A stretch of 63,935 nucleotides of DNA from NCBI GenBank assembly GCA_020248905.1, contig JADCGR010000029.1, positions 1-63,935 of the forward strand. Direction: 5' to 3'. Below are positions 48,837 through 63,649 of this stretch, in pieces. The position numbers were made by a program, and so were the translations under genes. The DNA is from Curvibacter sp. GTDB lineage: Bacteria; Pseudomonadota; Gammaproteobacteria; Burkholderiales; Burkholderiaceae_C. The notes beneath the pieces are model-generated. The model worked only from the letters and a program-made list of their open reading frames with translations, did not search any database and was not told the origin of the DNA. Numbering within the stretch: position 1 is the stretch's first letter; the number at the start of each line of letters is the position of its first letter.

Positions 48837-51215
48837 TCAATCGGCAGTGCTGTCAGCGCCGACCCTGTAGCCCATCGCCCGGTAACCTGCCTGCCGTTTG
48901 TCCCACATCCGCAGCAGTGCAGGGTGACCGGTATCGACAAAGTCGATGATCCGCACGTCGGTCTTGCTGGCGTGCTCTCGGTGCAGGCGCCCGGCATATT
49001 GTTGCAGTGTGCCTTTCCAGGAGACTGGCATGGCTAGCACCAGCGTATCGAGCGGCGGGTGATCGAAGCCTTCGCCAACCAGTTTGCCTGTCGAAAGAAG
49101 AACGCGCGGCGCATCGGGCGGCAGGGCCTCCAGATCAGCAACCAGCCCCGCTCGCTGTTTCCTGGACATTCGACCGTGCAACACAAAAGGTGCCGGTTCC
49201 AATCCATCAAGGGCTGCTTTGATGGCATCGAGATGTTCTGTGCGTTCTGTCAGAACTAGCACCTTGCGTCTCTGCCCGATGGCATCACGCACCTCGGCGG
49301 CAATGGCTTCCGTTCGGGACTGGTCATTGGCGAGATGCCGAAAAACATCCTGGATGCCTGCATCGGTCGGTAGGTCGATCCGTGTGAAGCGCGAACGCGG
49401 CAGCACTTCGAGATCGTGCGGTGCACCGGCTGGCTTGGCCGCCGTGTAGCGAATTGGCCCGCACTGCATGAAGATGATGGGCTGCTGACCGTCACGACGG
49501 ACGGGCGTTGCCGTCAGGCCCAACACGTACTTGGCCTTGGTCCGCTTCAGGATGGCATCGAACGACACCGCGCCAACGTGGTGACACTCGTCCACGATCA
49601 CCTGTCCGTAGTTCTCGACCAGCGGGTTGACCTCACCTTGGCGGGAGACGAACTGCATGACGGCAATGTCAATCTTGCCGGTGGGTTTCGCTTTGCCTCC
49701 GCCGATGGTGCCGACCACACCGTTTCCCACACCCAGAAACGTCTGCAGACGCTCCTGCCATTGTCTGAGTAATTCGGTTCGATGCACCAGCACCAAAGTG
49801 TTCACACCCCGGCGCGCGATCATCGCTGCTGCGGTCACGGTCTTGCCAAAGGCTGTCGGAGCGCACAGCACGCCGTTGTCGTGGCTCAGCATGCCGGCAA
49901 CTGCAGCCTCCTGGTCAAGACGCAAAGTGCCGGCAAAAGAGACATCAACGGGTTCACCGCCAAAACGCTCATCGCGCAGGTCACAGTCGATACCGTTGTC
50001 CCGCAGCAGATCCAGCGCGGCATCGAAGCAACCGCGAGGCAAGGCGATGTGCTGCGGGAAATTTTCTGCATTGCCGATGACACGGGGCTTGTCCCATACA
50101 GACATACGCATGGCTTGGGCCTTGTAGAACTCGGGGTTCTGGAAGGCAGCCAGGCGGATCAGGCGATTGGCCAGTGCCTGCGGCAGTTGGGCCTTCTCAA
50201 AATAGATCAGGTTGGCCAGCGTCACGGTCAACGACTTCGGCATTGGCCCAGCCAGTTTCTTGGTCGATGTGCTCTCACGCTTCCAGGGTGTGGCCAAATC
50301 TTCATCATCGATGAAGGTGACGTCCAACGGATGGACGCCGCCCATGGCACGCAAAATGGTCGGCTCGATATCGTGTGCGGCGATGGGCTGGATGGAGGCG
50401 AGTAACCCCCATTGATCAGGATACGGGCGCAGATCGGCATCAACGAAAACACTGCAACCACTTTCACGTGGCCACTTCTGCAACGGCAAGGCAATCAGGT
50501 TGCCGAAACCGCCTTTGGGCATCGTGTCCTGATTCGGGAACAGCCGGTCGTAGGATTCCAGCTTCAATTGCCGGGTGCGCGAGCAGGTATGGCTGATGAT
50601 GGCGGTGCCAAGGCGCCGGGCATCACGTGCAGAAACACGGTTGCCGAAAAACACCCATGCGTGCGCGCCATTTCCGGACCGAGATATTTCCAGCGCAGTC
50701 GGAACACCCAGTTCCTCGCATGACTGGATGAAGGATCGCGCGTCGTCGCGCCATTCGGCCTCATCGAAATCGACAGCCAGAAAGTAGCAGGTATCATCTT
50801 CCAGCAGCGGATAAACACCGACCGTGCGCTTTCCGGCCAGATGCTCATAGATCACCGCATCGGACAGTGGGATCAGCAGACGATTGCTGCAATCGCCGCA
50901 TTTGATACGCGGCTTTTCGCAAACACCGGCACGCCATTCGTTCGCGCAGGCAGGCGCGTAGCCTGATTTGCCAGTTGATTTGCTCTCCCAGCGAATGGGG
51001 TAAACGTCTGTGCGCCCGCGAAACAGACGACGGAACAGCGCCACCTTCTCGGCTGTGGACAATCTAGATTGCTCGGGCTCCTGTACCTCAACAGCAATGG
51101 GCTGTGGGGGCAACCGCCATTCGATTCCGTGCGATTCGAGCAGCGCGATCAGGCGAGCGTTTTCGGAGCGCAGGCCTTCCAACTCCAAGGCCTGATCTGC
51201 ATTGGGGTCGCGCAT
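48837..51215 (-). CDS. TOTE-type primase + DEAD/DEAH helicase
   Basis: 792 aa from ATG 51215; the open frame extends 50 codons further up without homology. N-terminal coiled coil (ELEGLRSENARLIALLESHG). Then a Cys-rich finger (CANEWRAGVCEKPRIKCGDC) and an archaeo-eukaryotic primase-like domain: AVDFDEAEW (about residue 148, metal acids) and ISRSGNGAHAWVFFGNRVSA. Then a superfamily 2 helicase: Walker A CAPTAFGKTVTAAAMIAR (about 450), DECHHVGAVSF (about 540), LGLTATPVRRDG, and QYAGRLHREHASK. This architecture was described for the TOTE conflict systems, thought to act against invading DNA. Last gene of the island operon; 82-bp gap after the DUF6155-like gene. Confidence 0.82.
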   Translation of the reverse strand: MRDPNADQALELEGLRSENARLIALLESHGIEWRLPPQPIAVEVQEPEQSRLSTAEKVALFRRLFRGRTDVYPIRWESKSTGKSGYAPACANEWRAGVCEKPRIKCGDCSNRLLIPLSDAVIYEHLAGKRTVGVYPLLEDDTCYFLAVDFDEAEWRDDARSFIQSCEELGVPTALEISRSGNGAHAWVFFGNRVSARDARRLGTAIISHTCSRTRQLKLESYDRLFPNQDTMPKGGFGNLIALPLQKWPRESGCSVFVDADLRPYPDQWGLLASIQPIAAHDIEPTILRAMGGVHPLDVTFIDDEDLATPWKRESTSTKKLAGPMPKSLTVTLANLIYFEKAQLPQALANRLIRLAAFQNPEFYKAQAMRMSVWDKPRVIGNAENFPQHIALPRGCFDAALDLLRDNGIDCDLRDERFGGEPVDVSFAGTLRLDQEAAVAGMLSHDNGVLCAPTAFGKTVTAAAMIARRGVNTLVLVHRTELLRQWQERLQTFLGVGNGVVGTIGGGKAKPTGKIDIAVMQFVSRQGEVNPLVENYGQVIVDECHHVGAVSFDAILKRTKAKYVLGLTATPVRRDGQQPIIFMQCGPIRYTAAKPAGAPHDLEVLPRSRFTRIDLPTDAGIQDVFRHLANDQSRTEAIAAEVRDAIGQRRKVLVLTERTEHLDAIKAALDGLEPAPFVLHGRMSRKQRAGLVADLEALPPDAPRVLLSTGKLVGEGFDHPPLDTLVLAMPVSWKGTLQQYAGRLHREHASKTDVRIIDFVDTGHPALLRMWDKRQAGYRAMGYRVGADSTAD

Positions 51216-51297
51216 CACGCCCCTACTGCGGTGAAAGTCGAGTTGTCCAGACGGATGACGATTCGCCACTTGCCCACCGCGGTCTTCTCGGATTTCT

Positions 51298-51855
51298 TCA
51301 TTCAGCACCCGCCAACCCGGCTTCCGACCAGAAGTGGTCGAAGTCATCACCCACGCCCCAGCCAACGTCTTGCCCCAACTGGCGCACCCGGTCGAGCCGT
51401 GTCAGGAATGCTGCCCGCTGCGCCTTGGGCAAGGCCAGTACGTATTTCAATGCCTGCTCGAACATCAGCACCAGCGCGTCGTAAAAGCCTTCGTCGTCCA
51501 TGCCGCAACCGGCCAGAAAATCGAACACTTCCTCACAGTAGAACACCGTGAGTTCGGCCAAGCCCTCGGGCTGGCCCAGCGCCTTCTTGTAGTCGCTGAT
51601 GGCTTTCTTGGCCTTGGCAACCGACTGAGGCTTGCGGTAGTCCTGCGGATTGATCCATTGTGTGATCACATCCTTGTACGGCCCCAGCGGGTCATCGCCC
51701 AGCCCAAAGCGGGCATGCAAGTAGGCCTTGTTGTCCTTGCTGGCGGCGTACAGGTCTTGCACCAACCCCAGCAGGCAAGCGCGGTCAAAATCGGCCAACT
51801 TGGTTTTGACGTCGCTCCAACTGGGATTGGCTTTGGTGGTTTTCTTCGTGGCCAT
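51298..51855 (-). CDS. DUF6155-like helical protein
   Basis: 185 aa, rich in Lys at the start (MATKKTTKANPSWSDVKTKL) and helical throughout, e.g. LLGLVQDLYAASKDNKAYLH and LTVFYCEEVFDFLAGCGMDD. The LxxLVxxLYxxSxxNKxYLxxRF pattern recalls DUF6155, a small family of no known function; the match is from memory and only moderate. It lies 5 bp after rhuM, so it is part of the island operon and a candidate accessory factor. Confidence 0.6.
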   Translation of the reverse strand: MATKKTTKANPSWSDVKTKLADFDRACLLGLVQDLYAASKDNKAYLHARFGLGDDPLGPYKDVITQWINPQDYRKPQSVAKAKKAISDYKKALGQPEGLAELTVFYCEEVFDFLAGCGMDDEGFYDALVLMFEQALKYVLALPKAQRAAFLTRLDRVRQLGQDVGWGVGDDFDHFWSEAGLAGAE

Positions 51856-51860
51856 GCGCG

Positions 51861-52931
51861 TTAGCCCTCATCCGTGCCGGGCTTGCCGCCGGATTCAATC
51901 TGTTTCAGCAGCCGGTCGAAGTCGCTCTCAAACAGGCGGTCCTGCACGATGCGGTATTTTTCAAATTCGCTTTCGGCGTGGGCCTTGGCGATTTCTGCTG
52001 TGACCTTGCCTGCGTCCTGTAACACCTCGCGGTCGGTGGCCTCGATAAACCGGTTCAGGCGAGTTTCCCAATCCTGCATGGTCATGGGAATCTTGCGCTG
52101 CGCCATGTCCTCGGCCACATCCAGATAGGCGTTCACGAGGCGGGAGAGTTGCGCCATTTCGGGCTCGGTCAGGTAATTCTTGGCGACCACGACATCGAAC
52201 TTCTGAATCTTCCCGCCCGGCGCATCCTTCCATGAGGTCAGCCCCATATTTGGCTGGTCGGCATCGGCGCGGTGGTAAACCACTTCCGCCGCTGTCTGAC
52301 CGTGGATGGCCCAGTGCAGCTTGTTCTGCACCGTGGCGAAAAAGCGCTTGGTGGCTTGCGCCGTCACGTCGTAGTCAATCGCCGTGGCGTAGATGTCGGT
52401 GATCTTCTGGTAGAACTTGCGTTCTGAGAGGCGAATCTCGCGGATGCGCTGCAACTGCTCTTCGAAATACTGCTCGGTGAGTACCGAGCCACCGGCCTTG
52501 ATGCGGTCATCGTCCATCACATAGGCCTTGATGGTGAACTGCTCGATGATGCCCGTGGCCCACTTGCGGAACTGCACCGCACGCTCGGAATTCACCTTGT
52601 AGCCCACCGCGATGATGGCGGGCAGGCTGTAGTGCTGGGTGTTGTAGTTCTTACCGTCAGAGGCAGTTATCCGGAATTTCCGGATAACTGAATCTTCCTG
52701 CAACTCGCTGTCGGCAAAGATTTTTTTCAGATGCTCATTCACCGTGCGGACATTCACGTCGTAAAGCACACCCATCATCTTCTGGGTGATCCAGACGTTC
52801 TCCTCTGCGTACACCGCTTCCACACCGCCCTGGCCGCTGGCGGCGACGAACGTCAGGTATTCCGCCGCCGAGGAGCGGACGATGGAAACCTCGGTTTTCT
52901 TTGGCGGCTGGGGTGGTTTGCGCTGGCTCAT
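51861..52931 (-). CDS. rhuM: Virulence protein RhuM family
   Basis: 356 aa. Typical Rhu[21 protein letters not shown] as a winged-HTH-like N-terminus, [40 protein letters not shown], and [20 protein letters not shown]. RhuM proteins (named from a Salmonella pathogenicity island gene) are common inside type I R-M operons, apparently as regulatory or defence accessory proteins; their biochemistry is unknown. Start overlaps the hsdR stop (ATGA). Confidence 0.88.
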
Positions 52932-55900
52932 ATCACGCCGCCCACGCCTTTGAACTTCTCAACAAAAGCGGCGATTTTCTGAAATACGCTCTGCTTCTTG
53001 GTCAGGTATTGAGGGTTCAGCGGGCTCATCTTGGGCAGAACGGCATTGAGCTCCGTACCGCTGTCACTGGCAAATTCCCGCTTCAGCGAGGTGCTGATGT
53101 ATCGCTTGGCTGCCTCTGCATTCAGGTTTTCGGCGCTGATCAACTCTTGCGCTTCGCGCTGCTGTTCCGCTTGGGCAAAGGTGAAGAAGGCGTCAATCAC
53201 ACTGGCTTTGTCGCCAATCTGGTCGAGATCAGTCTGATTGATGAAATCGACCAGCAGACTCTCTTTGGCGCGGTTGCCCAAGCTGGCGCGAATGACGCGG
53301 CGCACTTCGTCCACAAGCTCCGACTTGCTCTTGATCTTTTTGTTGTGCTCGAAGATCAACTCCAGGATGTAGTCCAGATTGATTTCCTGCGACTTCAGCA
53401 GGTCCACCTCAAAAACGACGTCATCCCAATCGATGGTGGATTTTTCTTTCTCAGTGGAAGATTTTTCTCGGCGCAGCCAATCGCGCACATCGTTATAGGT
53501 GGAGCGGTAATCCTGAATTTTCCGCTCCGCCGGGAGCGTGATGGCTTGCAGTGCAGTCAGATCGTCATCGCTCAGATAGTGTTTGGCCTTGAACGCCTCC
53601 ACCGCATTGGCATCCGTCAGGTCAACGCTCTGAAGCTCTTTCAGGCTGGCGAACTCGTCATAGTTTTGCAGCACGTTTTCCACGCGCAGGTACTCGCCGA
53701 ACAGCTTGGCGAACGCCTTTTTATCAGCTTCCTTTTCAATGGCAGCGGGGTCGGGGAAGCGTGTTTCCAACTCCTTCACCACCTCCACAAAGCCACGCCG
53801 CGCCTCACCGGTGGCCGCGTCGGTGAAGCCTTCCATGTATTCCTTGTAGCTCTTCTCCAGCACCACGTTCTTGGTGTTTTTGTCACCGAACAGGGTGATG
53901 GCGTCGATGGTCGCCTGCTCCAGATCGCGGAAGGTGACGATGTTGCCGAAGGTCTTGGTGGCGTCGAAAATGCGGTTGGTGCGCGAGTACGCCTGCATCA
54001 GCCCGTGGTAGCGCAGATTCTTGTCCACGAACAAGGTGTTCAGCGTGGGCGCATCAAAGCCCGTCAGGAACATGCCCACCACAATCAGCAGGTCGATTTC
54101 CTTGGCTTTGACTTGTTTGGCCAGATCACGGTAATAGTTCTGGAAGCCATCACTATCCACGCTGAAGTTAGTTTTGAACAGGGCGTTGTAGTCAGTAATG
54201 GCTGCACTCAGGAACTCCTTCGCGCTGCTGTTCATGGCTGAGACTTCAAAACTCTCGTCCTGAATGTCGCCGATCGCATCCTGTTCTTCGTTGGCTGCAA
54301 ACGAGAAGATCGTGGCCACCTTCAGTGGTTTGTCGATGCCCTTCTGTAGCTCCCTGAAGGACTCGTAATACAGCTTTGCGGCATCGACGCTGCTGACTGC
54401 GAACATGGCATTGAAGCCCTTGTTGCCCGCGTGCAGGCGGTGGGTCTTCTGCCGAAAATTGTTCAGGATGTACTGAGTGATCTCGCGAATGCGATCGGGG
54501 TGCAGCAGGGCCTGTTTGTTCTCTGCGGCGCTGAGCTTTTTCTCGTCCAGTTCGGTCTCAATGGCTTTGAACTGTGGACGCACGTCGTTGTAATCGACCT
54601 TGAACTTCAGCACCTTCTCATCACGAATCGCATCGGTGATGACGTACGAATGTAGCTCACGACCAAACACGCTGGCCGTGGTTTCAGCACCCAGCGCGTT
54701 TTCCGGGAAGATGGGTGTGCCGGTGAAACCGAACTGATAGAACTTCTTGAACTTTTTCTTGAGGTTTTTCTGCGCCTCGCCAAACTGACTGCGGTGGCAT
54801 TCATCAAAGATGAATACGACCTGCTTGCCGTAGATGGGCAGGTCGGCCTCGCCCTTCATCAGGTTGTTGAGCTTCTGGATGGTGGTGACGACGATTTTGT
54901 TGTCGTCTTTGTCCAGATTTCGTTTCAGGCCCGCCGTGCTGTCCGAGCCATTCACGCTGTCTGGTGAAAAGCGCTGGTATTCCTTCATGGTCTGGTAGTC
55001 CAGATCCTTGCGGTCCACCACGAAGAACACCTTGTCGATGAAGTCCAGCTCGGTGGCCAGCCGTGCCGCCTTGAAACTGGTCAGGGTCTTGCCGGAGCCC
55101 GTGGTGTGCCAGATGAAGCCACCGCCCTCCAGATCACTCCAGCGTTTGGCCTGATACGCGCTGTTGATCTTCCACAGGATGCGCTCCGTGGCAGCAATCT
55201 GGTAGGGGCGCATCACCAGCAAGGTATCGCTGACATCAAATACGGAGTAGTGCAAGAGCACATTCAGTAGCGCGTGCTTCTGAAAGAACGTGGCCGTGAA
55301 GTCCTTCAGGTCCCTGATCAGGCTGTTGTCCGCCTTCGCCCAGTTCATGGTGAAGTCGAAGCTGTTCTTGTTTCGCTGCGTGGTGTTGGCGAAATAGCGG
55401 CTATCCGTGCCGTTGGAGATGACAAAGATCTGCAGGTATTTGAACAAGGAGTGCTCGCTGTTGAAGCTCTCCTTGCTGTAGCGATGCACCTGATTGAAGG
55501 CTTCGCGAATGGCTACCCCACGTTTTTTCAGCTCCACCTGGACCACTGGCAGGCCATTGACCAGAATCGTCACGTCGTAGCGATTGGCGTGGGTACCGGT
55601 CTGTTCAAACTGTTTGATCACCTGCACCTTGTTGCGGGTGATGTTCTTCTTGTCTAGCAGACGAATGTTCTGGATGCGACCATCGTCAAAGACGAAGTCG
55701 TGCACGTAGTCATCGTGAATCTTGCGGGTTTTTTCGACGATGCCATCGCTGGGCTTGTCCAGCCAGGTTTCGACGAATCGCAGCCACTCGCCATCGGAAA
55801 ACTGCACGCCATTGAGCGCTTGCAGCTGTACACGGACATTGGCCAGTAGCGCTTCGGGTGTGTTCAGTCCGGGTAGGTATTCATAACCCTGGTTTTGCAA

Positions 55901-56026
55901 ATCCTGAATGAACTCCCGCTCCAGATCGTTCTCACTCTGGTAGCTCTCTGCGACCTTCCACTCCCGGGTGTATTGATCGAGAACGATGAAATACTTCGAC
56001 TCGGCGATGGTTTTGTAGTCAGTCAT
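52928..56026 (-). CDS. hsdR: Type I restriction enzyme R subunit
   Basis: 1032 aa from ATG 56026. N-terminal PD-(D/E)xK nuclease: [20 protein letters not shown] (Asp and Glu-x-Lys near residue 163). Then the translocase motor: Walker A in [20 protein letters not shown] (about 306), [15 protein letters not shown] (about 407), [27 protein letters not shown] and [11 protein letters not shown]-terminal helical part contacts HsdM. Length and motif order fit EcoR124I-type (type IC) HsdR. It overlaps the YhcG-like nuclease gene by eight bases. Confidence 0.93.
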
Positions 56027-57065
56027 TGGGCTCTTTCGCATCTTGGATGAGCGCGGCCAACTCGCTCTCAATCTCTTGCACCGTTGGCAACTGGGATTGA
56101 ACCGACAGCGGGATGTCCTTGGTGATGAAAGAACTCACACCCATCGGCTTGTTGACGTCACGCAGGGCGTACTCCACGTCCAGCCTGTCCTTGTCTTTGC
56201 AAAGAATCAGGCCAATGGTGGGCTGATCACCTTCGCCGCGCAGTTGGTCGTCCACCCCCGACAGGTAGAAGTTGAGCTTGCCGACGTACTCGGGTTTGAA
56301 TTCGCCCGCCTTCAGTTCGATCACCACATAGCACTTCAGGCGTGCGTGATAGAACAGCAGATCCAGAAAGTAGTCCCTGCCGTTGACCACCAAGGGGTAC
56401 TGACGCCCGAGAAACGCAAAGCCCTTGCCCAGTTCGAGCAGAAACCGGGTGATTTGAGCGACCAATTGGTTCTCGATGTCGCGCTCCACCGCCTGCGGTG
56501 CCAGCGTCAGAAAATCGAACACATACGGGTCTTTCAGGCTCTGCTGCACCAGCTCTGACTGGGGCGCGGGCAGCGTCTGGGCAAAATTGCCCACCGCCTG
56601 GCCCGCTCGCTCATGAAAGCGCTGCTCAATTTGCCACTCCAGCACGGTGCGGCTCCAGCCGTGTTCAGCGCAGGCCTGTGCATAGAGCAGCACCAATTCC
56701 ACCGACTTCACCTTCGCCAGCAGGGTGCGCACATGCCCCCAAGGCATTTGTCCCACGGGCTGTGGGACAACTTCAAACTGCGGGCTGAAAAAGGCATAGA
56801 ACTGCCGCATGGCAAACAGGCTGGTACGGGAAAAGCCCTTCATGCCAGGGTAGCTGGCTTGCAGGTCCAGCGCCATTTGCTCTACCACCGCAGAGCCCCA
56901 AGCGCGCTCGCGTTGCCAGGCATCCAGTTGACGACCAATGTCCCAGTACAGGCCCAACAACTCGGCATTGACTGCCAGTACAGCCCGAGTTTGAGCCGCC
57001 TGGATGCGCTGCTTGATAGTGGCCAGTGCCGCGCGGTAATCGGTGTGGTGGGTGATGCTGCTCAT
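56019..57065 (-). CDS. PDDEXK nuclease of the YhcG/DUF1016 family
   Basis: 348 aa from ATG 57065. DUF1016 N-terminal domain ([40 protein letters not shown]) with the conserved [11 protein letters not shown] segment, and a C-terminal nuclease with [20 protein letters not shown] followed by [10 protein letters not shown], an Asp...Glu-x-Lys active site. The family is a frequent passenger of type I R-M operons between hsdS/prrC and hsdR, function undetermined. A DNA nuclease role is inferred. Confidence 0.88.
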
Positions 57066-57069
57066 GATG

Positions 57070-58203
57070 CTAGCCTCCCTGCTGCTGCCAAAAGCCATGG
57101 CTGTTCTTCAGGTGGTCGAGCAACAGTTTGACCGTGGCGCTCTCCGCAGGCGTGGGCTGTGCAACGGCTTCATTGGACAGCGTGCTGTGGCTGGTGAAGT
57201 TAATGATGCGTTTGTAGTACAACTGCTTTTCGTCTGGCAACAGCTCCGACCAATGGGGATATCCCAGAAAGCCGGCCGTTTTCTCATAGAGATTGCGCAG
57301 CAGGGTGAAGTGAAACCGCTCGACCTTTTTGTTAGCAACAGCCTGCTCGATGGTCTGCAACAGATAGAGATGGTAGGAAAAGCTCTTGTTGGAGTCGCCA
57401 TGCTTCACGGACAAGTCGAATGATCCATCTTCGTGGCGCTCGAGGAGATAGCAACCGTCCTTCTTGCTATTTTTACTGAGGTCGAGCTCGTTATGAAGAA
57501 CGTTATAGAAAAGCGGGCTATGAGTGGTGATGATGAACTTTAGGCGAGATTGACTGGATTTGATCAATCCAGCCAAGTTGACCGCCAACTCGATCAAGTG
57601 GTTTTCATCCAGCGAGCTCACAGGGTCATCAACAAAGATGTGGGTCAAATTATTGAAAACATCGGTGGAGCGGTGAGCAACTTCTGGAATATTCAGCTCT
57701 AAAATTACCTGCTCCAGCAATGCATTGAAAACACTCCAGATGAAGTTGCTTTCTTCGCCTTTGGAGATTTTGATATGGGGCTCTCGCTGATTGTTCCCGC
57801 GCTCGAAGGAAAAGCTGACTGACGTGAAGTCGGCGCTGAAATGTGGGGTCAGCTTTTCGCTGGTGTATCGTTGAAAATTAGCGGTAATGCTCTGGTCCTG
57901 CCCTTGCTCTTCCAGTACCCACTTGGTGAAAGAATTAGGTTGGATCTTCAACTTCGGCTCCATATCCAGCCCAAGGTCGTTGTCCCAATAAAACAGGTCT
58001 TCGGTGAAGGCGCTGTAATAAATAATCTTCTTGTTTGCCAAGTCGGATGATGGCGCATCACTGCCCTCAACTTCTGAGTCAATCAGCTGCTTGAATTCCC
58101 GCGATAGACGCGTCTTGCCCATGCCATTGAAGGCATAAATCAGCTGCACCGGGTAGTTGGCGCCTTTCAGCTGTTGCGCGATTTCCTTCAGCGTCTTGCC
58201 CAT
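57070..58203 (-). CDS. prrC: PrrC-type anticodon nuclease
   Basis: 377 aa; E. coli PrrC is 396. N-terminal ABC-like NTPase: LIYAFNGMGKTRLSREFKQL (Walker A, residues 24-31), KGEESNFIWSVFNALLEQVI (signature region), HIFVDDPVSSLDENHLIELA (Walker B), FIITTHSPLFYN. C-terminal nuclease: Arg303 and Glu307 in LLRNLYEKTAGFLGYPHW and His339 in NFTSHSTLSNEAV. The spacing Arg-x3-Glu-x31-His equals that recalled for E. coli PrrC (320, 324, 356). Known role: held silent by the R-M complex, PrrC cuts tRNA-Lys in the anticodon loop when a phage disables restriction. The gene lies one base after hsdS, the order of the prr locus. The difference in length is a short N-terminal insert missing before the Walker A strand. 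Confidence 0.88.
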   Translation of the reverse strand: MGKTLKEIAQQLKGANYPVQLIYAFNGMGKTRLSREFKQLIDSEVEGSDAPSSDLANKKIIYYSAFTEDLFYWDNDLGLDMEPKLKIQPNSFTKWVLEEQGQDQSITANFQRYTSEKLTPHFSADFTSVSFSFERGNNQREPHIKISKGEESNFIWSVFNALLEQVILELNIPEVAHRSTDVFNNLTHIFVDDPVSSLDENHLIELAVNLAGLIKSSQSRLKFIITTHSPLFYNVLHNELDLSKNSKKDGCYLLERHEDGSFDLSVKHGDSNKSFSYHLYLLQTIEQAVANKKVERFHFTLLRNLYEKTAGFLGYPHWSELLPDEKQLYYKRIINFTSHSTLSNEAVAQPTPAESATVKLLLDHLKNSHGFWQQQGG

Positions 58204-58204
58204 G

Positions 58205-59461
58205 TCAGGCGCCTACCTCTTCCGGCTTTGGGAAGCTGAGCAGCAGTTCGCGGTAATACTCGTATTGCTTCTGGCGCAGTTCGATTTCGTACGGCAAGCC
58301 CTTGGAGAGGGAGTTGGTAAGGGTGTCAAATTTGTCGAGGATCGCGACGATGCGTGCCTGTTCTGCAAGCGATTTTTTGGGGTCACTTGCATAGGGTATT
58401 GGAAGCCTGAAGCCCTTGATGATGCTTGAATTTAGGTCGCCTCTAGCACCTTGACCCAGGGCCTTGATGTGTTCGTAGTTAAAACTGACCCAATGAAACA
58501 CATAGCGATACAGCGCCTTTGTTTCGTCAATTTCCAAACATCCGCAGTGTTGATTGGTTGTCAGTGGTATCTTGTTGATTCCAGATCTACCTGCTGTTGC
58601 TCCAGATATGGCAATAATTACGCAATTAGCAGGTATCCACTTTGCGGCGGAGTTTTTTAGCGCAGCCTCAGTGATCTTTACTTCCGTGCTTTGAATGTCG
58701 GAAAACTTCACCTCTTGAGTTCTGAGCCATGGAATGTTGCCACTTTCATAATACGCGGGCACACCTGCGGTTGGCGTTCCACCCGAATACCATTTTTTGG
58801 TGACGTCTCCCAACGTCTTCCACTCCATCTCCCCATCTTCAAAATTCAACAACTGGTCGCGGTAGTAGTTGTATTGTTTTTTGCGGGCTGTAAGCTCGGC
58901 TGTAAGCTCGGCTGTAAGCTCGGCTGTAAGCTCGGTAAATGCGTCCAGGATGCGGACAATTTCCGCTTGGATTTCAAGCGATGTTTTGGGGTTATCTGGG
59001 CAGGGGATGGGAAGCTTGTATTCGAGTATCTTTGCTTTGTCGCCGCGAGGCATCTTTGCCCCTTTGGCATGCTGCATGTTGTAGGCAAAAAAATTCTCAT
59101 CGGTGAGTACCTGGTGCAAGTAGCCAGAGCTCAACGACTCGTGAGTGGGGCGGACAACAAGCACATCGCCATTTGTGCCGCCAGACTGATTGGCGAGCCA
59201 AATTTTTTTCAAATAGGGACGAATATTCCCGATCAAGATATCACCTGGGCGATATTCAATTAGGCGCCCCTCAGCGGGGACATAAGTCGAGTTGGTTTTT
59301 CCTGCTCTGTTCTGAAGAAGGTTATCAACGCCTACATAGTTCGTTTCATCGATCCCAGTACAGTCGACGCGCTCGTCAGAGTACTTGGCTACATCCCCAA
59401 GCGCCACCCACTCCACCTCAACGCCATCCAGCAACTTCTCCAAATAGTTTCCGCTGCTCAT
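58205..59461 (-). CDS. hsdS: Type I restriction enzyme specificity subunit, type IC
   Basis: 418 aa. Two target-recognition domains, each followed by a conserved helix. The first conserved region ends [20 protein letters not shown] and the second [20 protein letters not shown]. Between them lies the Thr-Ala-Glu-Leu repeat of EcoR124-type HsdS, here four 12-bp units (residues about 177-192). TRD1 starts [23 protein letters not shown]2 begins near [20 protein letters not shown]. The DNA target cannot be read from sequence. Overlaps hsdM by four bases and precedes prrC by one. Confidence 0.92.
58887..58934 (-). repeat. Four 12-bp tandem repeats in hsdS (TAEL-type spacer)
   Basis: Four perfect copies of GCTGTAAGCTCG (plus strand), coding Glu-Leu-Thr-Ala on the minus strand. 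In type IC HsdS of the EcoR124 family two or three such units set the distance between the two half-targets (N6 or N7). Copy number changes keep the reading frame because the unit is 12 bp. Confidence 0.95.
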
Positions 59462-61014
59462 GCCTCCATCTCTCCGTCCTCAATCTCAGCGACGATGGCA
59501 TCGATGTCTTTACGTAGCTGGTCGATCTTGGTGACGGTGGTTTTCAGCTCTGCATTGAGCTGAGCAATATCCACCACCTCGCGCTTGTCCTTGGCCTCCA
59601 CGTAGCTGCTGACCGACAGGTTGTAGTCGTTGGCTGCCACTCTCTCAAACGGGACGGACTGGGCAAAGTGATCGACATTGGCCTTACTGTCGAACACCGC
59701 CATGATTGCTTTGATGTGCTCATCCAGCAGCACGTTGTTGTTCGTTTCCTTCTTGAACAGGCCGCTGGCGTCGATGAACTGCGTGGTGGTATCTAGCTTG
59801 TGTTTGGACAGCACCAGGATCGTGACGGCAATGGTGGTGCCGTAGAACAGGTTGGGCGCCAGCGAAATGACGCTCTCGACATAGTTGTTGTCCACCAGAT
59901 ACTGGCGGATTTTTTGCTCAGCACCGCCCCGATAAAAGATCCCGGGGAAGCAGACTATTGCCGCGCGGCCTTTGCTGGATAGGTAGCTGAGTGCGTGCAG
60001 CACAAACGCGAAGTCGGCCTTGGACTTGGGCGCCAGCACGCCAGCCGGCGCAAAGCGGTCGTCGTTAATCAGCGTGGGGTCATCGCTACCCACCCACTTC
60101 ACCGAGTACGGTGGGTTGGAGACGATGGCATCGAACGGCTTGTCGTCCCCAAAGTGAGGTTCGATCAAGGTGTCGCCCAGCTGGATGTTGAACTTGTCGT
60201 AGTTCACGTTGTGCAAGAACATGTTCATCCGCGCCAGGTTGTACGTGGTGTGGTTGAGTTCCTGCCCGTAAAAGCCGTCGTCGATCAGATGTTGATCGAA
60301 GTGCTTTTTGGCCTGCAACAGCAGCGAGCCCGAGCCGCATGCTGGGTCGTAAATCTTGTTGACGCTGATCTGCTTGTGCATGGCCAGCTGGGCAATCAGC
60401 TTGGACACGTGCTGCGGCGTGAAAAATTCGCCGCCAGACTTGCCGGCGTTGGCGGCGTAGTTGGAGATCAGAAATTCGTAGGCATCGCCAAACAGGTCGA
60501 TGTGGCTGGCATCAAAGTCGCCAAAATCCAGTTCCGCCACGCCTTTGAGCACAGCAGCCAAGCGGGTGTTTTTGTCTTTGACGGTGTTTCCCAGGCGGTT
60601 GCTGGTGGTGTCAAAGTCGGCAAAAAGGCCTCGAATGTCCCGCTCTGATGGGTAGCCAATGGCAGAGCTTTCAATGGCCGAGAAGATCTTGGCCAGGTCG
60701 GTGTTCAGGCTGTCATTGGTGTTGGCGCTGGCGGCTACGTTGACGAACAGCTGGCTGGGGTAGATGAAGTAGCCCTTGGTCTTGATCGCGTCGTCTTTGA
60801 TTTCCGGCGTGATGACCAGATCGGAGAGCCCGGCGTAGTCGATGCTCTCGTCACCGCCTTCGATGTAGGCCGCAAAGTTTTCGCTGATGAAGCGATAAAA
60901 CAGCGTGCCCAACACGTATTGCTTGAAGTCCCAACCGTCCACAGCCCCTCGGACATCATTGGCGATTTGCCAGATCCGGCGTTGCAGTTCGGCGCGCTGT
61001 TGAATGCTGGTCAT
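59458..61014 (-). CDS. hsdM: Type I restriction-modification DNA methyltransferase (M subunit)
   Basis: 518 aa. N-terminal helical domain ([20 protein letters not shown]), SAM-binding motif [19 protein letters not shown] (about 221) and catalytic motif [20 protein letters not shown] (about 300), giving N6-adenine methylation. [20 protein letters not shown] precedes motif I as in type IC HsdM. First enzyme gene of the operon; start overlaps the stop of the HTH gene by four bases. Confidence 0.94.
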
Positions 61015-61760: not shown

Positions 61761-62087
61761 TCAGGCCATCACCACCTGCGTGCGCACTTCGACCTTCAGT
61801 GCGCGCTTGATGGCCGCAAACACTGCCGAGATGTTGCTCATGGTCGGGTTGCCAGACTGCGACAGCATCCGGTGCAGGCTTTTGGCCGGTTTGTGAATTT
61901 CCTCGGCCAGTGCCTCGAAGCCGACAGTCGCGTTCACGAGGTCACGCAGGATTAGCTTGGCTGATTCCGGCTCGCCATTGACGAACAGGGTGATGGCCTC
62001 GTCCAGAAGTGCCTGCGCAAAGGCCGGATCGTTCTGTACGCGCGCGGCCACGGTTTCTTTGAAATCACGGGTCAGTGCCATGTTCAC
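61761..62087 (-). CDS. Antitoxin of HigBA-like pair (HTH)
   Basis: 108 aa from GTG 62087 overlapping the toxin stop, or 106 aa from ATG 62081 (MALTRDFKETVAARVQNDPA). Helical protein with LVNATVGFEALAEEIHKPAK and the HTH SLHRMLSQSGNPTMSNISAV, characteristic of the addiction-module antidote class that follows a RelE-like toxin. It should bind its own promoter and the toxin. The partner is frameshifted, so its present role may be only regulatory. Confidence 0.82.
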   Translation of the reverse strand: MNMALTRDFKETVAARVQNDPAFAQALLDEAITLFVNGEPESAKLILRDLVNATVGFEALAEEIHKPAKSLHRMLSQSGNPTMSNISAVFAAIKRALKVEVRTQVVMA

Positions 62088-63023: not shown

Positions 63024-63371
63024 TCAGGGCGAGCGATCCTTGGCCGCAGAGAAGTGCCGTGGCAAGTCCATACTGTCGTGAAGCAGCCTCAGGACGTCAA
63101 TGTCCGATCCGGCCGAACGGAACACCACGAAGTGTCGCCCAGCGCGCCCCTGCCGAGCGACATGCAATGTCCGAATGCCTGGCTGGATGTCTTCGCGCGC
63201 TCTGGCACCCAAAATATCGGGTCCCTGCTCCAAGGCCTCGATTGCCAGCGCAATCGTTTCAGCGTAGCTGCTAGCCTGACCCTCGCCGAAGGTCATGACC
63301 GTCCACTGCAGGATTTCAGCGTAATCCTGTTCAGCCTGTTGACCGAGTCGAACCGTCCAAACCTGTCTCAT
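63024..63371 (-). CDS. parE: ParE/RelE-family toxin
   Basis: 115 aa, overlapping the antitoxin stop by four bases. RelE/ParE fold: VWTVRLGQQAEQDYAEILQW, RAREDIQPGIRTLHVARQGR, GRHFVVFRSAGSDIDVLRLL. ParE-type toxins poison gyrase, RelE-type cut mRNA; the ParD-like partner favours ParE. Lies outside the island repeats. Confidence 0.88.
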   Translation of the reverse strand: MRQVWTVRLGQQAEQDYAEILQWTVMTFGEGQASSYAETIALAIEALEQGPDILGARAREDIQPGIRTLHVARQGRAGRHFVVFRSAGSDIDVLRLLHDSMDLPRHFSAAKDRSP

Positions 63372-63649
63372 GCACCTGCGATGGCTTTCGAAGCCACGGA
63401 CGCCAGGTGACCTCTGAGTTGAGCACCCGATTCAAAGCTGGCGTATCGCCCCTGCTCGAAGTCAGCAATGCCGACCTTGACCGCAGTACGCAGGGCCTCC
63501 AGGCGTGAGGCATCCTCGGCTTCACGTTGCTCCACCATGCGAAGCCCTTCCCGCAAGACTTCGCTGGCGTTTTGATACCGTCCTGTGCTGACAAGCCGCT
63601 CCACGAAAGAGGCCTGGTAGTTGGTCAGAACAACGTTGCGTGTAGGCAT
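63368..63649 (-). CDS. parD: ParD-family antitoxin
   Basis: 93 aa. Ribbon-helix-helix N-terminus MPTRNVVLTNYQASFVERLV, then TGRYQNASEVLREGLRMVEQ, the ParD signature, and a flexible tail that should wrap the toxin. Upstream is a strong palindrome that fits autoregulation. Confidence 0.9.
   Translation of the reverse strand: MPTRNVVLTNYQASFVERLVSTGRYQNASEVLREGLRMVEQREAEDASRLEALRTAVKVGIADFEQGRYASFESGAQLRGHLASVASKAIAGA

Follow-up and report, generated by a model that had tools for sequence, protein, structure and literature searches.

The anticodon nuclease PrrC has been studied mainly through its Escherichia coli representative, for which R320, E324 and H356 are the published catalytic residues (PMC2610378); for D287, a contact with the modified wobble base has been reported (PMC3014915). 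PrrC proteins measure 341-416 amino acids, whereas those of the related RloC group reach 658-897 (PMC2610378), and PrrC has been placed in the HEPN superfamily (PMC3710099). Here, we consider a prrC gene carried by a stretch of 63,935 nucleotides from Curvibacter sp. (contig JADCGR010000029.1 of assembly GCA_020248905.1, hereafter the window), read in an original prediction as a PrrC-type nuclease gene inside a type IC restriction-modification (R-M) operon. With high confidence, the gene is an ortholog belonging to the branch of E. coli PrrC (EcoPrrC), and its product would act as a guard in the same manner as in E. coli.

By analogy with E. coli, a guard mechanism may reasonably be transferred to this locus. 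PrrC would be made together with the R-M enzyme and kept silent by it. A phage product disabling the type IC enzyme, as Stp does in T4, would then set the nuclease free through GTP hydrolysis and dTTP binding. The freed PrrC would cleave tRNA-Lys(UUU) on the 5′ side of the wobble base and so produce ends with a 2′,3′-cyclic phosphate and a 5′-OH. Translation would halt, and the infected cell would not multiply the phage.

The PrrC protein and its active site

The open reading frame fills exactly the interval originally predicted, starts with ATG and is intact; it lies on the minus strand, which had been left unstated (Table 1). The PrrC model of PADLOC covers residues 3-375 with 476.6 bits, the runner-up model reaching 46.6 bits. 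Along its full length, the protein is 71% identical to a 396-residue PrrC annotated as an anticodon nuclease on an E. coli plasmid (L083, CP057689.1), a copy used throughout as the E. coli reference instead of the prototype EcoPrrC record. With a full-length alignment at this level of identity, chance likeness is of no concern, and the PrrC identity first proposed is thus upheld. The protein is organized as a Rad50-like ABC (ATP-binding cassette) ATPase head followed by a mostly helical C-terminal domain containing R303, E307, R332 and H339. No NCBIfam model matched it at E<=0.01.

A different identity may be envisaged, that of an RloC-type nuclease or of another AAA_13 ABC ATPase, PtuA-like or Rad50-like, answering DNA damage and not the loss of restriction. 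Several observations lean this way and count against PrrC: Pfam recognizes AAA_13 alone (residues 188-340), PtuA of retrons and Septu, Rad50 and GajA of Gabija are among the top Foldseek matches, and weaker PADLOC matches were obtained with PDC-S06 models of about 730-860 positions. A phmmer search of solved structures returned four weak matches, the best (E=0.009) being to a Chaetomium Rad50 construct. However, the length of the protein falls within the range of PrrC and well below that of RloC (PMC2610378), it has a single cysteine and no zinc-hook CXXC, and the PADLOC PrrC model is ahead of the next one by 430 bits, to which the identity with E. coli PrrC must be added. On length, missing hook and PADLOC score, the RloC, PtuA and Rad50 identities were rejected, and such a nature of the protein is extremely improbable.

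In the alignment with the E. coli reference, R320, E324, H356 and D287 correspond to R303, E307, H339 and D270, with a constant shift of 17. The triad and its uniform offset, as given in the original prediction, are therefore found in register, and D287 follows the same shift. Conservation was evaluated in 82 relatives, namely the best 80 of 514 found by six peptide patterns derived from the query, plus two E. coli plasmid copies; this set is biased toward the query, so that the counts describe close relatives (62-85% identity). In addition to the residues listed in Table 1, D193 and D199 of the Walker B/D-loop are each kept in 82 of the 82. The spacing R332-x6-H339 fits the R-x4-6-H of HEPN RNases, and a comparison with the HEPN fold gave a weak match. 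In the three relatives departing from R332 (L066, L074 and L080), an arginine occurs one column earlier, L074 reading R-x7-H, and R332 is also kept in all eight sequences of a separate comparison. The active site is likely formed by R303, E307, R332 and H339.

Relative to seven close relatives (dS 0.98-1.37), the ratio of nonsynonymous to synonymous substitution rates (dN/dS) of prrC is 0.085-0.124; toward the E. coli gene, dS is saturated. Such ratios indicate strong purifying selection, and hence a maintained protein. As judged from its sequence, the gene encodes an intact and ordinary PrrC ortholog, which probably works.

Table 1. Features of the prrC locus, with conservation among the 82 relatives
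Feature	Coordinates	Strand	Remarks
prrC	57070..58203	minus	377-aa ABC-ATPase plus C-terminal anticodon-nuclease domain; PADLOC PrrC E=1.3e-143
Walker A AFNGMGKT, residues 24-31	58111..58134	minus	G29, K30, T31 kept in 82/82
Walker B / D-loop FVDDPVSSLD, residues 190-199	57607..57636	minus	D193, D199 kept in 82/82
Switch (linchpin) histidine H228	57520..57522	minus	kept in 82/82
D270 (E. coli D287 equivalent)	57394..57396	minus	kept in 82/82
R303 (E. coli R320), triad	57295..57297	minus	kept in 81/82; exception L077, C
E307 (E. coli E324), triad	57283..57285	minus	kept in 82/82
R332, arginine of HEPN-type R-x6-H with H339	57208..57210	minus	79/82 in aligned column
H339 (E. coli H356), triad	57187..57189	minus	kept in 82/82
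hsdM, first operon gene	59458..61014	minus	TIGR00497 649.9 bits (cut-off 242.75)
hsdS, type I specificity subunit	58205..59461	minus	Methylase_S, 2 stretches
12-bp tandem repeat in hsdS, 4.2 perfect copies	58886..58935	minus	encodes three TAEL repeats
DUF1016/YhcG PDDEXK nuclease-family gene	56019..57065	minus	open reading frame opens 57098; likely ATG 57065
hsdR with EcoR124_C domain	52928..56026	minus	open reading frame opens 56071; likely ATG 56026

An operon of type IC and the place of prrC within it

The gene order is hsdM-hsdS-prrC-DUF1016-hsdR, followed by genes for RhuM, a 185-residue protein and a TOTE-type primase-helicase. As had been noticed at the outset, a single base (58204) separates the end of hsdS from the ATG of prrC, an arrangement shared by 75 of the 82 relatives. 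From hsdM through hsdR, adjacent genes overlap or are at most 4 bases apart, so that they are probably translationally coupled. The system is assigned to type IC, in agreement with the original reading, because HsdR carries an EcoR124_C domain (PF12008, 244 bits for a cut-off of 23.1) and HsdS three TAEL repeats. The same number of repeats is reported for EcoPrrI and EcoDXXI, and repeat number has been linked to how long the spacer in the DNA target is (PMC3874165). Among the HsdS neighbours of prrC, perfect TAEL copies number zero in 24 of 80 and three in 22 of 80; by its sequence, the repeat thus supports type IC here, yet it is not universal beside prrC. Gain or loss of a unit in the 12-bp array of hsdS would be expected to alter the DNA-target spacer, as in the pair EcoR124I/II (PMC3874165).

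Matches to hsdS, hsdR and hsdM were found in 81, 80 and 78 of the 82 loci, respectively. This agrees with PrrC being described as invariably linked to type IC systems (PMC2610378) and as embedded in type I loci that Pseudomonas islands carry (PMC12629846). The loci with unmatched genes, L020 (HsdS and HsdM), L008, L046 and L055 (HsdM), and L052 and L065 (HsdR), all sit at contig ends. In L052, a Bro-N-like frame, named by its likeness to L023 and L046, follows prrC and runs to the end of the contig; in L065, a RhuM match comes after prrC, and the contig stops inside that gene or shortly past it.

The original prediction had also pointed out that the N-terminal insert of E. coli PrrC is absent, and had suggested that coupling to HsdR/M may differ. 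The absence was confirmed, the stretch from the first helix to Walker A counting 6 residues against 22 in the E. coli reference. However, this interval measures 5-6 residues in 62 of the 82 relatives and 22-25 in 19, both E. coli copies included, L020 being left unclassed as a contig end truncates it, and the two forms both occur in hsdMSR operons. Being the common state, the insert-less form gives no evidence for a different coupling, and the missing insert was discarded as a special feature of this protein.

Searches at larger scale show where prrC occurs. By tblastn, 113 of 72,556 plasmid records contain relatives, and several of these carry the annotation of an anticodon nuclease. In 50,697 phage records, the same search gave no match at E<=1e-5, leaving a phage-borne copy without support. 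When 5,426 complete E. coli genomes were searched by distant blastn, 15 gave a match, which in 6 covers 80% of the gene or more. In a set of 299 genomes from the family of the host, the PrrC model matches 33 (E<=0.001); for 10 of these, counting the window's, the match is almost full length, with E below 1e-120. The other 23 include 19 weak matches in frames above 700 residues, presumably other ABC ATPases, and prrC in pieces in two cases (G204 and G128). These pieces suggest a disruption or an assembly break.

Within the host's genus, one genome of five has prrC. In 10 of the 299 family genomes, the window's included, 11 places encode an HsdM with at least 79% identity, and a prrC match lies near it on the same contig in 4 of the 11 (in G000, which is the host genome, and in G163, G180 and G268), the place in G093 at least being too near a contig end to be decided. 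In view of these counts, prrC is an optional module of otherwise similar type IC systems. Base composition differs as well, the eight genes at 48837-61014 having a GC content of 0.556 as compared to 0.664 for the 12 chromosomal genes of the window; together with the single occurrence in the genus, this suggests horizontal gain of the region.

Optionality leads one to ask whether the protein could be a PrrC by descent only, with a nuclease fallen into disuse or uncoupled from the R-M enzyme through the missing insert. The companionship of prrC with a minority of the similar hsdM genes and the fragmented copies in G204 and G128 speak for such a fate, and to that extent against a working guard. 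On the other side stand the dN/dS of about 0.1, the intact frame, triad and D270, and the insert-less majority linked to hsdMSR, so that disuse is very unlikely.

Six of the ten near-full-length family proteins form a diverged branch (L096-L099, L101 and L102), with 31-34% identity to the window PrrC. R303, E307, R332 and H339 are kept there, and the segment around D270 is shorter, with an uncertain alignment. An HsdM match (36-37% identity) comes directly after prrC in L096, L097, L098 and L101. Ahead of prrC, a frame that by eye resembles HsdS is present in L096, L098 and L101 but not in L097, and a RhuM-like sequence follows prrC in L099 and L102.

The host tRNA-Lys and the prrC-hsdR junction

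The host genome has 11 matches to E. coli lysT. The eight strongest, scanned with ARAGORN, comprise one tRNA-Lys(UUU), one tRNA-Lys(CUU) and other tRNAs. The two tRNA-Lys genes are neighbours, at 137115-137484 of contig C35 of the host genome (L085 and L086). The tRNA-Lys(UUU) is 91% identical to lysT and has the same loop, CUUUUAA, and the same A73. Its anticodon stem is GCGGA/UCCGU as compared to GUUGA/UCAAU in E. coli, and the predicted folding energies of the isolated, unmodified 17-mers are -4.2 and -0.4 kcal/mol, respectively. A stable stem is reported to inhibit E. coli PrrC (PMC3014915). Thus, the expected target is present, but its strong stem raises a question that does not arise in E. 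coli. The combination of an E. coli loop with a far stronger stem, in a host that also has a CUU isoacceptor, is mildly new.

Considering these properties, the enzyme may be imagined as a working PrrC ortholog with a shifted substrate, which would tolerate the stable host stem and perhaps also cut tRNA-Lys(CUU). In addition to the strong stem and the CUU isoacceptor, this idea is favoured by AAG-rich genes, the lysine codons of the 12 chromosomal genes of the window being 32 AAA and 180 AAG. Overexpressed E. coli PrrC is reported to cut tRNA-Arg and tRNA-Glu species as well, and to leave minor 5′-C ends (PMC2610378); its specificity is therefore not absolute, and the minor ends hint that tRNAs with C34 may be weak substrates. 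Nevertheless, D270 is invariant in the relatives, which speaks in favour of the wobble preference having stayed the same, and a literature search combining PrrC with CUU yielded one paper, in which CUU is mentioned in other connections. A shift of substrate thus seems unlikely, though less so than disuse.

The interval between prrC and hsdR is itself variable. In the 80 loci where it could be measured, it is at most 250 nucleotides in 54 and longer in 26. Its contents, of which ten proteins were scanned, differ between loci and include DUF1016/YhcG (the case of the window), RhuM, Bro-N and Fic, as well as a protein with a RelA/SpoT domain and a DUF4143 ATPase. The junction is a variable cargo slot, which is mildly new. 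PrrC-like genes with RhuM have already been noted (PMC3710099); in the library searched, pairing PrrC with DUF1016, or with YhcG or RhuM, returned no paper naming PrrC together with DUF1016 or YhcG. Some of the DUF1016 matches at the junction resemble remnants. It is tempting to combine both aspects. In hosts rich in AAG, where the tRNA-Lys stem is stable and a tRNA-Lys(CUU) exists separately, PrrC would have adapted to a substrate that the E. coli enzyme handles poorly (the stable stem, perhaps CUU), and the modular type IC operon would accept at its prrC-hsdR junction exchangeable defence genes (DUF1016, RhuM, Bro-N, Fic, RelA/SpoT-like) as third-line effectors. This proposal is speculative, and its chances are as low as those of the substrate shift.

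The region after hsdR (48837-52931) holds the RhuM gene, the 185-residue protein, which has no family match, and the TOTE gene. Matches to the last two are found in only one of the 82 relatives (L018), where their order is kept. Upstream of hsdM are encoded a small protein (61761-62087), which matches an addiction-module antidote weakly and below the cut-off, and a ParDE-like toxin-antitoxin pair (63024-63649).

Comparison with known systems

As one of many relatives of E. coli PrrC, the window protein is largely ordinary. Its locus adds an intact PrrC from a GC-rich bacterium, and offers a test case: is a strong anticodon stem tolerated, is tRNA-Lys(CUU) spared, and do the junction genes join the guard response?

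Other nucleases resemble it to various extents. RloC shares the ABC ATPase and the R-x3-E...H triad but is twice as long, contains a coiled coil with a zinc hook, cuts out the wobble nucleotide and is rarely linked to R-M genes (PMC2610378). With respect to HEPN-domain RNases (PMC3710099), the window PrrC is fused to an ABC ATPase inside an R-M operon, and the fold match is weak. PrrC170 of Klebsiella quasipneumoniae, a PrrC with a type I R-M system, has been shown to act on tRNA-Lys and to restrict phages T1 and T7. Its identity to EcoPrrC is reported as only 35%, and the listing of the cloned genes reads HsdR, HsdS, PrrC, HsdM (PMC11555353); by this description, on which the comparison is made, the order resembles that of L096, L098 and L101 in the diverged branch.

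The closest system is that of E. coli (EcoprrI, prrABCD). Both proteins combine an ABC ATPase with a nuclease domain in which the R/E/H triad and D287 are in register. The E. coli plasmid locus has the same M-S-prrC order, with a single base between hsdS and prrC; type IC hsdMSR genes are common to both systems, and EcoPrrI shares the three TAEL repeats in HsdS. Unlike E. coli PrrC, the window protein has no 22-residue N-terminal insert and a DUF1016 gene stands between prrC and hsdR, while the host differs from E. coli by a stronger tRNA-Lys stem and a CUU isoacceptor.
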